Source: a bacterium (GTDB lineage: Bacteria; Desulfobacterota; Desulfobulbia; Desulfobulbales; Desulfobulbaceae). From it: DNA of 64,000 bases. The notes under the pieces are model-generated. The model did not search any database, was not told where the DNA came from, and was given only the letters and a program-made list of their open reading frames with translations. This document shows, piece after piece, positions 4,688-36,127 of the stretch; the stretch's first letter is position 1, and every line of letters begins with the position of its first letter. The stretch is from positions 1 to 64,000 of the forward strand of contig JAUNUN010000010.1 in the NCBI GenBank assembly GCA_030538155.1, written 5' to 3'. The position numbers and the translations under genes are program-made.

Positions 4688-5629
4688 ATGAATAAAAATA
4701 TACGCTTCGTTCTCCTTGCCCTAGTGGCTGCAGTCGGCTTTCTGCTGTGGAATTCGTTTTTTATCCTCAACGAAGGTCAGCAGGCGGTAATCACCCAGTT
4801 CGGCAAGCCGGTGGGCCGGCCGCACACCAGCGCTGGTCTGAAATTCAAACTGCCGTTTATCCAGTATGTGCATTTCTTCGAAAAGAAAATTCTCATCTGG
4901 AACGGTGATTCCAACCAGATCCCCACCAATGACAAGACCTATATCTACATGGAAAACACCGCCCGCTGGCGCATCAGCGATGCCCTGCGTTTCATGCAGG
5001 CAGTGGGCACCGAGGCCAGGGCAAGAACCCTTTTGGATGACATTTTAGATGGCACGGTGCGCGATCTGGTCAACAAAAACGACCTGATCGAAATTATCCG
5101 CAGCTCCGACTGGTCGCCGGATTATGTGGATTCCACCCTGCAAACGCCGGAAGATATGCAAAGGCCCAAGCACGGCCGCGATCAGATCAGCCAGATGGTA
5201 CTGGAGGCGGCCGCAAAGATCACGCCACAGTACGGCATCGAACTGATTGATGTCATGTTCAAGCGGGTAAACTACATCGACACGGTGCGGCTCAGAGTTT
5301 ATGACCGCATGATTTCGGAGCGCAAGCGAATTGCTGCGGAAAAGCGCGCCACCGGTGAAGGCCAAAAAGCGGAAATTCTTGGTCGGGTGGATCGTGAATT
5401 CAAAAGCATCACCTCTGCCGCCCAAAAACAGTCTCTGGAGATTCGCGGTGCGGCAGATGCCGAGGCCACTCGCATCTATGCCGAGGCCTACAATCTGGAT
5501 CCCGAATTCTACGCCTTCCAGAAAAGCCTGGAAAGCTACCGCAGCATTTTAGGTAAGCAGAGCACCCTGATGCTCGATCCGGCATCCGATCTGCTGCGCT
5601 ATATGGAAACGCCGACGCAAAAACGCTGA
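4688..5629 (+). CDS. hflC: HflC, SPFH/Band 7 membrane protein, FtsH modulator
   Basis: Partner of HflK in the membrane complex that modulates FtsH. The 313-residue protein has an N-terminal membrane anchor at about 6-24, then a Band 7 domain starting LNEGQQAVITQFGKP. A charged helical segment has E-R-x-R-IAAEKRATGEGQ, and the C terminus has the family-typical AEAYNLDPEFYAFQKSLES. It lies directly behind hflK. A dispersed repeat element begins on the base after its stop codon. Confidence 0.95.
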   Translation: MNKNIRFVLLALVAAVGFLLWNSFFILNEGQQAVITQFGKPVGRPHTSAGLKFKLPFIQYVHFFEKKILIWNGDSNQIPTNDKTYIYMENTARWRISDALRFMQAVGTEARARTLLDDILDGTVRDLVNKNDLIEIIRSSDWSPDYVDSTLQTPEDMQRPKHGRDQISQMVLEAAAKITPQYGIELIDVMFKRVNYIDTVRLRVYDRMISERKRIAAEKRATGEGQKAEILGRVDREFKSITSAAQKQSLEIRGAADAEATRIYAEAYNLDPEFYAFQKSLESYRSILGKQSTLMLDPASDLLRYMETPTQKR

Positions 5630-5762
5630 TTCCACTTGCAGATTAAAGCCCTGCTGCCTGTGCCGGCTCCAGCACATGCTCGCAGGGCTTATCTCTATGT
5701 ACGCCTGCGTCGCCCTTTTGCGCTTGCCTGCTTGATACATTCCCGTTGATCTGGAAACGGGA
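5630..5762. repeat. Dispersed terminal-inverted-repeat element, copy 1 (diverged)
   Basis: This is the most diverged of three related elements. It starts TTCCACTTGCAGATTAAAG on the base after the hflC stop and shares the core TGTACGCCTGCGTCGC and a following CTTGATA-CAT with the copies at 6496 and 35788. Its right end forms a short hairpin (CCCGTT then AACGGG) that could act as a transcription stop between convergent hflC and the next gene. Boundaries are approximate. Confidence 0.6.
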
Positions 5763-6461: not shown

Positions 6462-6896
6462 GGGTACTCCTGGCTGGGGCTGAAAATCCGGCTCATTTCA
6501 GTTCTTGTATCAAAAGCGCTCTTCGTGTCGGCTTCAGTACGTAGCCGCAGGACGTACCACAATGTACGCCTGAGCCGCTTTGCGTTTGCCATCTTGATAG
6601 CATCTTTGACCTGAAACTGAAAGACCGCGTTCCGGATGACAACCGCCGCTTTCGCTGGGTAGGCATCAATGTCTGCGGGTCCGACACAGTACCACCACCC
6701 GGAAAAATGACAAGCAGCGCACCGGCTGCGGCAGCGCTTTCTCCGCAATTCCTGGGAAAATTCTTTCCGGGCGGCCAAAGGCGGGCTATATTGCTTTTTT
6801 TACAAAATCTTCTTGCATCTGGTCGGCCTGCCCGGACCTGTTTTTCGAGCAGCGCGGCTCCGGCCAATCTTCTTCATTGTTCCCAAGGATCTTCTT
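6462..6896. other. 435-base intergenic region between divergent genes
   Basis: This region separates the zinc-ribbon gene from citrate synthase. It contains repeat copy 2 (6496-6622). The remaining bases should hold the citrate synthase promoter, but I see no convincing -35/-10 pair. Open frames crossing it have no coding look. Confidence 0.5.
6496..6622. repeat. Dispersed terminal-inverted-repeat element, copy 2
   Basis: The ends are inverted relative to each other: TTTCAGTTCTTGTATCAAAAG on the left and CTTTGACCTGAAACTGAAA on the right. Internal blocks shared with the 35788 copy include GTCGGCTTC, TGTACGCCTG and CTTGATAGCATCTTTGA. All three copies lie in the same orientation in this window. 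It encodes no plausible protein. Confidence 0.65.
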
Positions 6897-22343: not shown

Positions 22344-22441
22344 TGGCGGAAGTGCATGGGAATCGAACCCACCTGCCGAGTTTTTCACCCGGCACACCGG
22401 ATTTGAAGTCCGGGAGAGCCACCAGCGCCCTTTCCACTTCC
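22344..22441 (-). tRNA. selC: Selenocysteine tRNA (anticodon TCA)
   Basis: A 98-base tRNA including CCA has the long extra arm and long acceptor/T domain of tRNA-Sec. The 5' end is GGAAGTG, pairing with CACTTCC. The anticodon loop lies in CCGGACTTCAAATCCGG with anticodon TCA. The variable arm TGCCGGGTGAAAAACTCGGCA forms a stem, and the T loop region is GGGTTCGATTCCC. It reads UGA as selenocysteine when SelB and a SECIS element are present. No selenoprotein was identified in this window. Confidence 0.95.
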
Positions 22442-22911: not shown

Positions 22912-23165
22912 TTGCCGCATCTGCGTCCCTGCGACTGTACCCTGTAAGCCGGGCCTTGTCGCTCAGTCATGCCGTTTCCTGAGCAACGGCGATGTAGCAG
23001 GGATGCAAGAGAAATGCCACGCGGGGTGTTACAACAGTTGCTTCCTGCTCGCGTTTGCCACGCCGATCCTAGTGTAGATACGGTTTTGAGGCGGAATTGG
23101 AATGAGGCACATACCGCATAGCGTAGCTATGCTTTCTGCCGCTGCCCAGGCAGCGTACCTCTTGC

Positions 23166-31747: not shown

Positions 31748-32079
31748 GCCACAACCTTTTTTGTGGATTTTGATGCGGATATGTTTCCAATGCCGGATCA
31801 AAGACGGCATCAAAGGGCACGGGCGCACATAAGACTACGCCCAGCGAGCATATGCCAAAGCCCGCACCGAAAACGCTTTGATTCGTCAATTGGAATGGGC
31901 AGTTCAGCAATGCGGCACTCCCATATAGACCATACAGCAATGACCCTGGCCGCATACAGCGCCGTACCTTATTCGTCTCTTGGCCAAAGAACAAGCACTA
32001 AGCCGGAAATGGCTGCAGGCGCGGAGCTGCACAGTGCGCCTGCAGAGCGGCCTAATTACCTTGTATTGTTGTTAGCCCA
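31748..32079. other. 332-base intergenic region, no gene seen
   Basis: This region lies between two minus-strand genes and presumably contains the promoter of the lipoprotein gene and the end of the msrAB transcript. I see no convincing coding frame, RNA gene or strong hairpin. Confidence 0.4.
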
Positions 32080-34878: not shown

Positions 34879-35787
34879 ATGGCACAAGGAGCCGATTCAG
34901 TAAAAACCATATTGTACGCCCTGGCCGCAAATTCCGCCATTTTTTTAGCAAAACTGGCCGCCGCCCTGTACACCGGCTCGGGCGCGATGATGGCAGAGGC
35001 TGTGCACTCGCTTGCCGATGCGGGTAACCAAGGGCTTTTGCTCTTTGGCCACAAGGCAGCCAAGAGTCCGCCTTCGCCGGATTATCCATTGGGCCGGGGC
35101 AAGGAGATTTACTTCTGGAGCTTTATCGTCGCGCTCATCCTCTTCAGCATGGGCGGGCTCTTTTCCCTGTACGAGGGCTGGCACAAACTGCATGCGGCCG
35201 AGCCCCTCACCCGTCCCTCTATTGCCCTGACTGTGCTCATCTTTGCCATTGCGGCTGAATCGCTCTCCTTATGGGGCTGTATCAGGGAGGTGAACAAGGA
35301 ACGCCGGGGCCGCAGCTACCTACGCTGGTTCCGCGAAACCCGCAACTCATCTCTTTTAGTGGTGTTCGGCGAGGATATTGCCGCCCTGCTCGGCCTTATT
35401 TTCGCGGCTCTTGCCATCAGCGCCACCATGATCACCGGCAACCCGCTCTTTGATGCCCTGGGCACCATGGCCATTGGCGTCCTTCTGATACTGGTCGCCT
35501 TTTTTATCGGCCTTGAGGTCAAATCACTCTTGGTGGGCCAGGGTGTGGATCCGTCCACCAAGGAAGAGATGCTGGCCCTTTTGCAGAACCGGCCGGAGAT
35601 CCATACCATTTACAACATGCTTACCCTGCAGATGGGGGATGATGTGGTGCTGGCGGTGAAGGCCAAGATGCACGCTGCGGGCAGCGAAGAGCAGATGGTG
35701 AAAAACATCAATGCCTGTGAAGCAGCCCTGCGCGCCGCCTTTCCTCAGGTGTTGTGGCTCTTCTTTGAGCCGGATATCAAGGAGTAG
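34879..35787 (+). CDS. Cation diffusion facilitator (CDF) family transporter
   Basis: A divalent metal/proton antiporter of the inner membrane. The 302-residue protein shows the family metal site EAVHSLADAGNQ (H43, D47) in the second helix. Several hydrophobic helices follow, then a soluble C-terminal domain of about 90 residues (MLTLQMGDDVVLAVKAKM). Zn, Fe or Mn specificity cannot be set from this. GGGAG lies about 9 bases ahead of the ATG. A repeat element begins immediately after the stop codon. Confidence 0.88.
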   Translation: MAQGADSVKTILYALAANSAIFLAKLAAALYTGSGAMMAEAVHSLADAGNQGLLLFGHKAAKSPPSPDYPLGRGKEIYFWSFIVALILFSMGGLFSLYEGWHKLHAAEPLTRPSIALTVLIFAIAAESLSLWGCIREVNKERRGRSYLRWFRETRNSSLLVVFGEDIAALLGLIFAALAISATMITGNPLFDALGTMAIGVLLILVAFFIGLEVKSLLVGQGVDPSTKEEMLALLQNRPEIHTIYNMLTLQMGDDVVLAVKAKMHAAGSEEQMVKNINACEAALRAAFPQVLWLFFEPDIKE

Positions 35788-35910
35788 TTCCAGTTCCCTA
35801 TCAAAGCCCTATCTGCGTCGGCTTCGGTAAATGCTCCTCGGAGTACCAGATGTACGCCTGCGTCGCATTTCCCTCGCCTCCTTGATAGCATCTTTGATAT
35901 GAAACTGGAA
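35788..35910. repeat. Dispersed terminal-inverted-repeat element, copy 3 (best ends)
   Basis: A 123-base element with ends TTCCAGTTCCCTATCAAAG and CTTTGATATGAAACTGGAA, which are inverted repeats with 16 of 19 bases matching. The internal blocks GTCGGCTTC, TGTACGCCTGCGTCGC and CTTGATAGCATC are shared with the copies near 5.6 and 6.5 kb. It begins on the base after the CDF stop codon. No credible gene is inside. Confidence 0.75.
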
Positions 35911-36127
35911 TAATACCGCTTTATAATCAAAGCTCTTCCCGCCGGTTTGGAGCATGCTCGTGACGAAACGTGCTCACGCGCTCCAAACCGGCCCTGCCTT
36001 CCTCCTGTTCTTTGAGATCACTTCTATTTGATCACTTTTCCTTCAGGTTGGAACAGGCGGATGAGCATGCCGTTTTTCTCTTTTTCATCACTTTCCACCA
36101 CCTTCCATTACCTTTCATCAATTAGAC
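35911..36127. other. Intergenic region before pepN with long hairpin
   Basis: This follows the repeat element and precedes pepN. It contains the 13-bp stem GCCGGTTTGGAGC (35941-35953) with GCTCCAAACCGGC (35980-35992), a 26-base loop and no U-tract. Beyond it are two short GATCACTT words. It presumably holds the pepN promoter, not identifiable by eye. Confidence 0.45.

Follow-up and report, generated by a model that had tools for sequence, protein, structure and literature searches.

MITEs described in bacteria are short, non-coding sequences with terminal inverted repeats (TIRs) and a target-site duplication (TSD), which form hairpins, lie mostly between genes and are moved in trans (PMC10969869; MITEAba12, PMC6382973), and many accepted MITEs have no known partner (PMC2229807). 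ERIC, also called IRU or RU-1, is a 127-bp element of Enterobacteria and Vibrio whose long hairpin is transcribed together with the upstream gene, and an orientation-dependent influence on the mRNA of that gene is reported (PMC2229807, PMC10969869). The Chunjie MITE of Geobacter uraniireducens (Chen et al. 2008) is described in a review as 178–235 bp long and located inside an operon, and its title, as cited there, speaks of an operon structure left undisturbed (PMC10969869). Multicopy palindromic sequences, high in copy number and intergenic, are catalogued for the genomes of G. metallireducens, G. bemidjiensis and P. carbinolicus, where they are regarded as putative regulatory sites or as being of unknown role (PMC2700814, PMC2996986, PMC3543383). 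Among insertion sequences (IS), IS1237 of the IS5 family generates a 3-bp TTA/TAA duplication and has ends of the form GAGGTGGTTTC... (PMC2516522).

The window analysed here, a stretch of 64,000 nucleotides from a Desulfobulbaceae genome (GCA_030538155.1, contig JAUNUN010000010.1), carries an element that is a non-autonomous DNA transposon of the MITE type. It shares the properties listed above for bacterial MITEs, and differs from them in that no partner IS was found for it in the sequence examined and in that its TSD is a 3-bp TNA. Its most unusual feature, absent from the original prediction made on this window, is insertion exactly at the stop codons of genes.

Element anatomy and copy number

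The original prediction had recognised three copies, at 5630-5762, 6496-6622 and 35788-35910, all in one orientation. These copies are present as placed and align over their full length (HMM E ≤ 1.2e-21); the count itself was too low, as two degenerate copies on the minus strand also lie in the window. The profile HMM was trained on 44 copies from the genome that contains the window (G000; 2.88 Mb in 100 contigs) and run over 779 kb of the same genome. The copies and their neighbouring genes are as follows.

4688..5629 (+): SPFH/Band-7 (HflC-type) gene with an insertion at its own stop codon (Pfam PF01145, E 7.5e-27)
5627..5629 (+): left target-site copy of the 5630 element, identical with the TGA stop codon of the SPFH/Band-7 gene
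5630..5762 (+): second copy, 133 bp, with a small internal insertion (HMM 81.7 bits, E 1.4e-23; stop offset 0)
6497..6622 (+): third copy, intergenic between divergent neighbours, duplications eroded (HMM 75.5 bits, E 1.2e-21)
22970..23102 (-): very degenerate copy (HMM E 1.4e-7)
31785..31894 (-): degenerate copy (HMM E 2.1e-10)
34912..35787 (+): cation efflux (CDF) gene with an insertion at its own stop codon (Pfam PF01545, E 4e-40)
35785..35787 (+): left target-site copy of the 35788 element, identical with the TAG stop codon of the cation-efflux gene
35788..35910 (+): best copy in the window, 123 bp (profile HMM 122.2 bits, E 4.5e-36; TIR match), with TIRs TTCCAGTTCCCTATCAAAG / CTTTGATATGAAACTGGAA
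35911..35913 (+): right target-site copy of the 35788 element, TAA, giving the pair TAG/TAA
36128..38674 (+): aminopeptidase N (M1) gene, downstream of the 35788 element on the same strand (Pfam PF01433, 5.7e-56; PF17432, 8e-87)

The cation-efflux reading frame starts at 34879 or 34912 and ends at 35787, and the TAG at its end is presumably derived from TAA. A GC-rich, perfect 13-bp inverted repeat (GCCGGTTTGGAGC...GCTCCAAACCGGC) lies at 35942-35992, in the gap that separates the element from the aminopeptidase gene; it is single-copy in 1.15 Mb of sampled genome sequence and has no T-run. The closest named relatives of the aminopeptidase point to a Desulfobulbus-like host within the Desulfobulbaceae. 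A selenocysteine tRNA gene (22344-22441, minus strand) lies near the degenerate copy at 22970-23102. At the gathering threshold, Rfam returned two tRNAs in the window and no RNA family matching the element.

Many further copies are present across G000. Whole-genome BLAST gave at least 40 (the best 40 of 120 candidates), and the terminal pattern CTTTGATMTGGAAMYGGAATNA matched 205 times at ≤ 3 mismatches, compared with 0 matches for the same pattern reversed as a control; 205 TIR ends correspond to about 100 copies. The unit measures 123–127 bp (~124 bp) and aligns as TTCCANTTCCATATCAAAG...conserved core...CTTTGATCTGGAAMYGGAA, with imperfect TIRs of ~19–22 bp. It encodes no protein, as had been predicted, since no consistent open frame runs through it.

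Copies begin and end at their inverted repeats, and TNA stands directly outside both ends. Of 28 copies with TNA on both flanks, 23 have the same triplet on either side (TAA 13, TTA 8, TGA 2), which identifies the triplets as a 3-bp TSD, mostly TAA/TTA, framing the element. Identical TNA pairs flank 21 of 40 copies in other genomes, the remainder being mostly cases of one-base decay or unclear ends. A search for an extended target motif beyond TNA gave no strong column and a mild apparent purine/A enrichment before the stop, uncorrected for background.

In the genus set, no pair of full copies is more than 92% identical and the median is 80%; the bulk of the copies are thus old. Internal-deletion derivatives of about 44–77 bp, which consist of the ends only and lack the core, still have their duplications.

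Placement and orientation at stop codons

Pooled over all sets, 59 of 128 copies (46%) are placed precisely at the stop codon of a gene, against ~8% expected. They comprise 37/75 copies in the genus set of three species, 18/40 in nine other Desulfobacterota genomes and only 4 of 13 copies, counted at confident gene stops, in the complete genome G333; genes were called de novo with a custom codon-usage caller. In the 779 kb of G000, 15 of 32 near-full copies lie exactly at a stop (p = 7.7e-9), where the expectation of 8.2% is taken over all TNA sites that are non-coding or at a stop. Among sites 0–60 nt past a stop, 13 copies occupy offset 0 and 3 occupy the 60 nt that follow (p = 2e-5). By sequence reading, the four stop-sited genes of G333 resemble those for a TolC-type protein, a uroporphyrinogen decarboxylase, a PfkB-type kinase and a membrane protein, and the copy on the plasmid of Trichlorobacter lovleyi SZ directly follows the TAA stop of an annotated DUF2149 gene. 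Because the duplicated triplet is the stop codon, the host gene is left intact and ends normally. The other half or so of the copies are found away from stops, some of them in divergent promoter regions.

Elements without the core are found at stops as well. The 44–77-bp derivatives occur there, among them a derivative of ~60 bp at the recG stop in G333 (locus L280, single-ended). The congener G010 lacks the core family and has elements of 170–450 bp with unrelated, GAGATTTCTC-rich interiors, which end in the same motif TTCCATTTC, are flanked by TNA and are in some cases nested (loci L184, L189, L193, L201, L205 and L351-L361). Of these elements with unrelated interiors, 5 of ~20 sit at stops, in both directions. 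Together with the core-less derivatives, they indicate that position is set by the ends or the transposition machinery rather than by the core, and the element ends, or the transposition step, probably determine where copies come to lie. The sharing of one end motif among the G010 families also suggests that one transposase serves several MITE families.

Stop-sited copies strongly favour one orientation (53:6 in the pooled sets). Among the 75 copies of the genus set, the stop lies on the left in 34 and on the right in 3 (p = 1e-7), and the 40 copies of the nine other Desulfobacterota genomes give 16 and 2. At the stops of long ORFs in G333 the figures are 3 and 1, with no clear orientation bias. 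Away from stops, TAA and TTA duplications are about equally frequent; the element by itself thus shows no evident preference for either orientation, and the bias arises only beside genes. The strong bias of the core family suggests later selection on the transcribed hairpin, which has probably shaped the orientation of the copies.

Mobility, distribution and the hairpin

Comparison of orthologous sites shows that the element transposes or has transposed, duplicating a 3-bp TNA target. At locus L198, a TAA stop carries a short element in G022 and is bare in G000, and the sites in G000 orthologous to the G013 copies L042 and L049 are empty; one insertion is common to G022 (L035) and G000 (C76:71396). 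The G022 orthologue of the cation-efflux gene upstream of the 35788 copy has the same C-terminal residues, FEPDIKE, and the same last codon (TAA), followed by a bare 43-bp spacer and then the aminopeptidase gene; the site is empty. In G013, too, the cation-efflux gene stops at this codon. A recent burst is indicated by 13 copies in the complete genome G333 (L262-L274), which are 97–100% identical and have mostly intact duplications. The TIRs, the 3-bp TSD, the empty orthologous sites, the internal-deletion derivatives and this near-identical amplification in one relative bear out the original suggestion of a MITE-like mobile sequence.

The search for a related transposase, which the original prediction had also pointed to, found none in the sampled G000 or the complete G333 sequence. 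TIR pairs 0.2–2.6 kb apart in sampled G000 are neighbouring elements only and enclose no gene. All ends in G333 pair as 123-bp or short forms and no IS has the same ends; no autonomous element with these ends was found in the examined sequence of G000, G333 and G010. The 3-bp TWA/TNA duplication agrees with IS5/PIF-Harbinger-like mobilisation, for which IS1237 is a precedent. The related IS5-type DDE family PF01609 (DDE_Tnp_1) has 0 matches in complete G333 and one weak match in G000, and as G333 is the genome of the most recent burst, the transposase class is a guess. The autonomous partner may have been lost or may reside elsewhere. The near-identical copies on G333 C1 offer a good place to seek the mobilising enzyme.

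With a covariance model, the element was found in 27 of 395 Desulfobacterota genomes, representing 18 genera. Carrier genomes often have at least 8 copies each, almost always of the same length and with a conserved core. Of 42 other genomes scanned with a second covariance model, 2 carry it, Geobacter sp. H7geo and a LacPavin MAG, both Deltaproteobacteria in the old sense; the ~29 gamma- and alphaproteobacterial genomes searched gave 0 matches. Among the plasmids searched, T. lovleyi pGLOV01 alone carries the element, and phage records gave no match.

Compensatory base changes have preserved the hairpin over its whole length, with 74 such cells in the genus set versus 28±4 in shuffles and support at 21 of 27 pairs across genera. 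Folding both RNA strands of the 35788..35910 copy gave a more stable structure on the minus strand (−56.5 kcal/mol, z −8.6) than on the plus strand (−40.6 kcal/mol, z −4.7). The minus-strand RNA is likewise more stable across the phylum, in 59/61 and 36/37 copies, by about 10 kcal/mol, the predicted hairpin stabilities being approximately −38 (plus) and −47 kcal/mol (minus). A-C mismatches on the plus strand appear as G-U pairs on the minus strand (alignments A2, A3). Given the orientation bias, the mRNA at stops usually carries the less stable strand. Its siting directly behind stops, as a 3'-UTR hairpin of one orientation, makes an effect of the element at the RNA level plausible, and a functional minus-strand RNA or ssDNA is conceivable.

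Competing explanations and relation to known elements

We consider it likely that the copies form a MITE family of ~124 bp that is mobilised in trans via its ends, targets TNA, is sited at stop codons and owes its retained orientation to selection. A DDE-type transposase would act in trans, recognising the ends only and striking TWA/TNA sites, and would directly or indirectly favour the ones at gene ends. Harmful insertions would then be purged, and plus-orientation copies behind stops would be retained because the mRNA receives the less stable hairpin. By analogy with ERIC, the resulting 3'-UTR stem may be tolerated, or may help slightly in stabilising or processing the mRNA 3' end. A stricter version, in which target choice itself is tied to stop codons because the transposase reads the gene-end TNA or is coupled to transcription or translation termination, is put forward tentatively and is on balance doubtful.

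Selection alone could account for the pattern. If the transposase hit any TNA and only harmless sites survived, the enrichment at stops would say nothing about targeting; insertions in coding sequence are indeed essentially absent, a stop rebuilt by the TSD is among the safest places and is kept whichever way the element points, the equal use of TAA and TTA away from stops speaks against an intrinsic orientation preference, and the bias beside genes implies some selection. Yet sites 1–60 nt past the stop are numerous and should be about as harmless, and still 13 copies lie at offset 0 versus 3 beyond it; the short core-less derivatives and the recent copies at stops are a further difficulty. 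Selection as the whole explanation is therefore a serious contender that we nevertheless hold to be somewhat improbable. We are more sceptical of a core that acts as structured RNA or protein-binding DNA (REP-, ERIC- or IHF-like) and has been domesticated at gene 3' ends, with mobility incidental and siting at stops selected for function. The conserved core and length across the phylum, the compensatory changes and the sense orientation bias would all follow, and the strand asymmetry of stability is consistent with it; however, copies at orthologous sites are usually unshared between sister species, core-less derivatives and the unrelated G010 interiors occupy stops too, and half of the copies lie elsewhere, divergent promoter regions among them.

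A hairpin directly after a gene also recalls an intrinsic terminator, and a dispersed repeat could be spurious and derive from assembly; both have a negligible chance of being correct. The element has no U-tract, received no terminator call and has a right end of GGAATNA, and its occurrence in complete single-contig genomes (G333, G150) and on a finished plasmid contradicts an artefact. Hardly more credible is a short coding element of the RPE/NEMIS kind that extends proteins in frame: a minus-strand frame often begins FQFQIKDDIKAAR, but stops and indels break it in most genomes, entropy hardly differs between the codon phases and the ORFs that run into copies look spurious. Coding on the minus strand and in-frame extension are accordingly rejected.

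Chance and selection are what keep most bacterial mobile elements from doing harm. In this family the 3-bp duplication can be the stop codon, and throughout the phylum about half of the surviving insertions leave the gene intact and add a hairpin 3' UTR. If targeting is real, it would be a new "safe-harbour" strategy, with one rebuildable stop per gene, usable as a tool for tagging gene ends. If selection is responsible, hundreds of orientation-biased 3'-UTR hairpins would form a natural experiment on the effects of post-stop hairpins on mRNA.

Among described elements, a REP-type identity, the alternative in the original prediction, does not fit the anatomy: REP and REPIN-RAYT sequences are palindromes of 20–40 bp with a GTAG/CGTC tag and no TSD, whereas the present element, at 124 bp and with a 3-bp TSD, is too long. 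IS1237 resembles it in its TTA/TAA duplication; the search for a related transposase carrying the ends described here was negative in the sequence examined. The Chunjie MITE, as described in review, belongs to the same phylum and is longer. Individual members of the present element may be among the multicopy palindromes catalogued in the same phylum for Geobacter- and Pelobacter-type genomes, for which we found no statement on stop codons in the open-access texts cited (PMC2700814, PMC2996986, PMC3543383). A coincidence of MITEs with stop codons is likewise not described in the open-access texts cited on MITEs (PMC10969869, PMC6382973).

ERIC, nearly identical in size, is the best-supported functional analogue; it has another sequence and another host phylum. 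The present core differs from the ERIC consensus. ERIC targets TA, and the present element duplicates a 3-bp TNA instead; the open-access texts cited on ERIC report no coincidence with stop codons. What sets the present element apart is thus an unusual relation to stop codons, apparently unreported in open-access texts, in a phylum-wide MITE family that is real and of a known kind.
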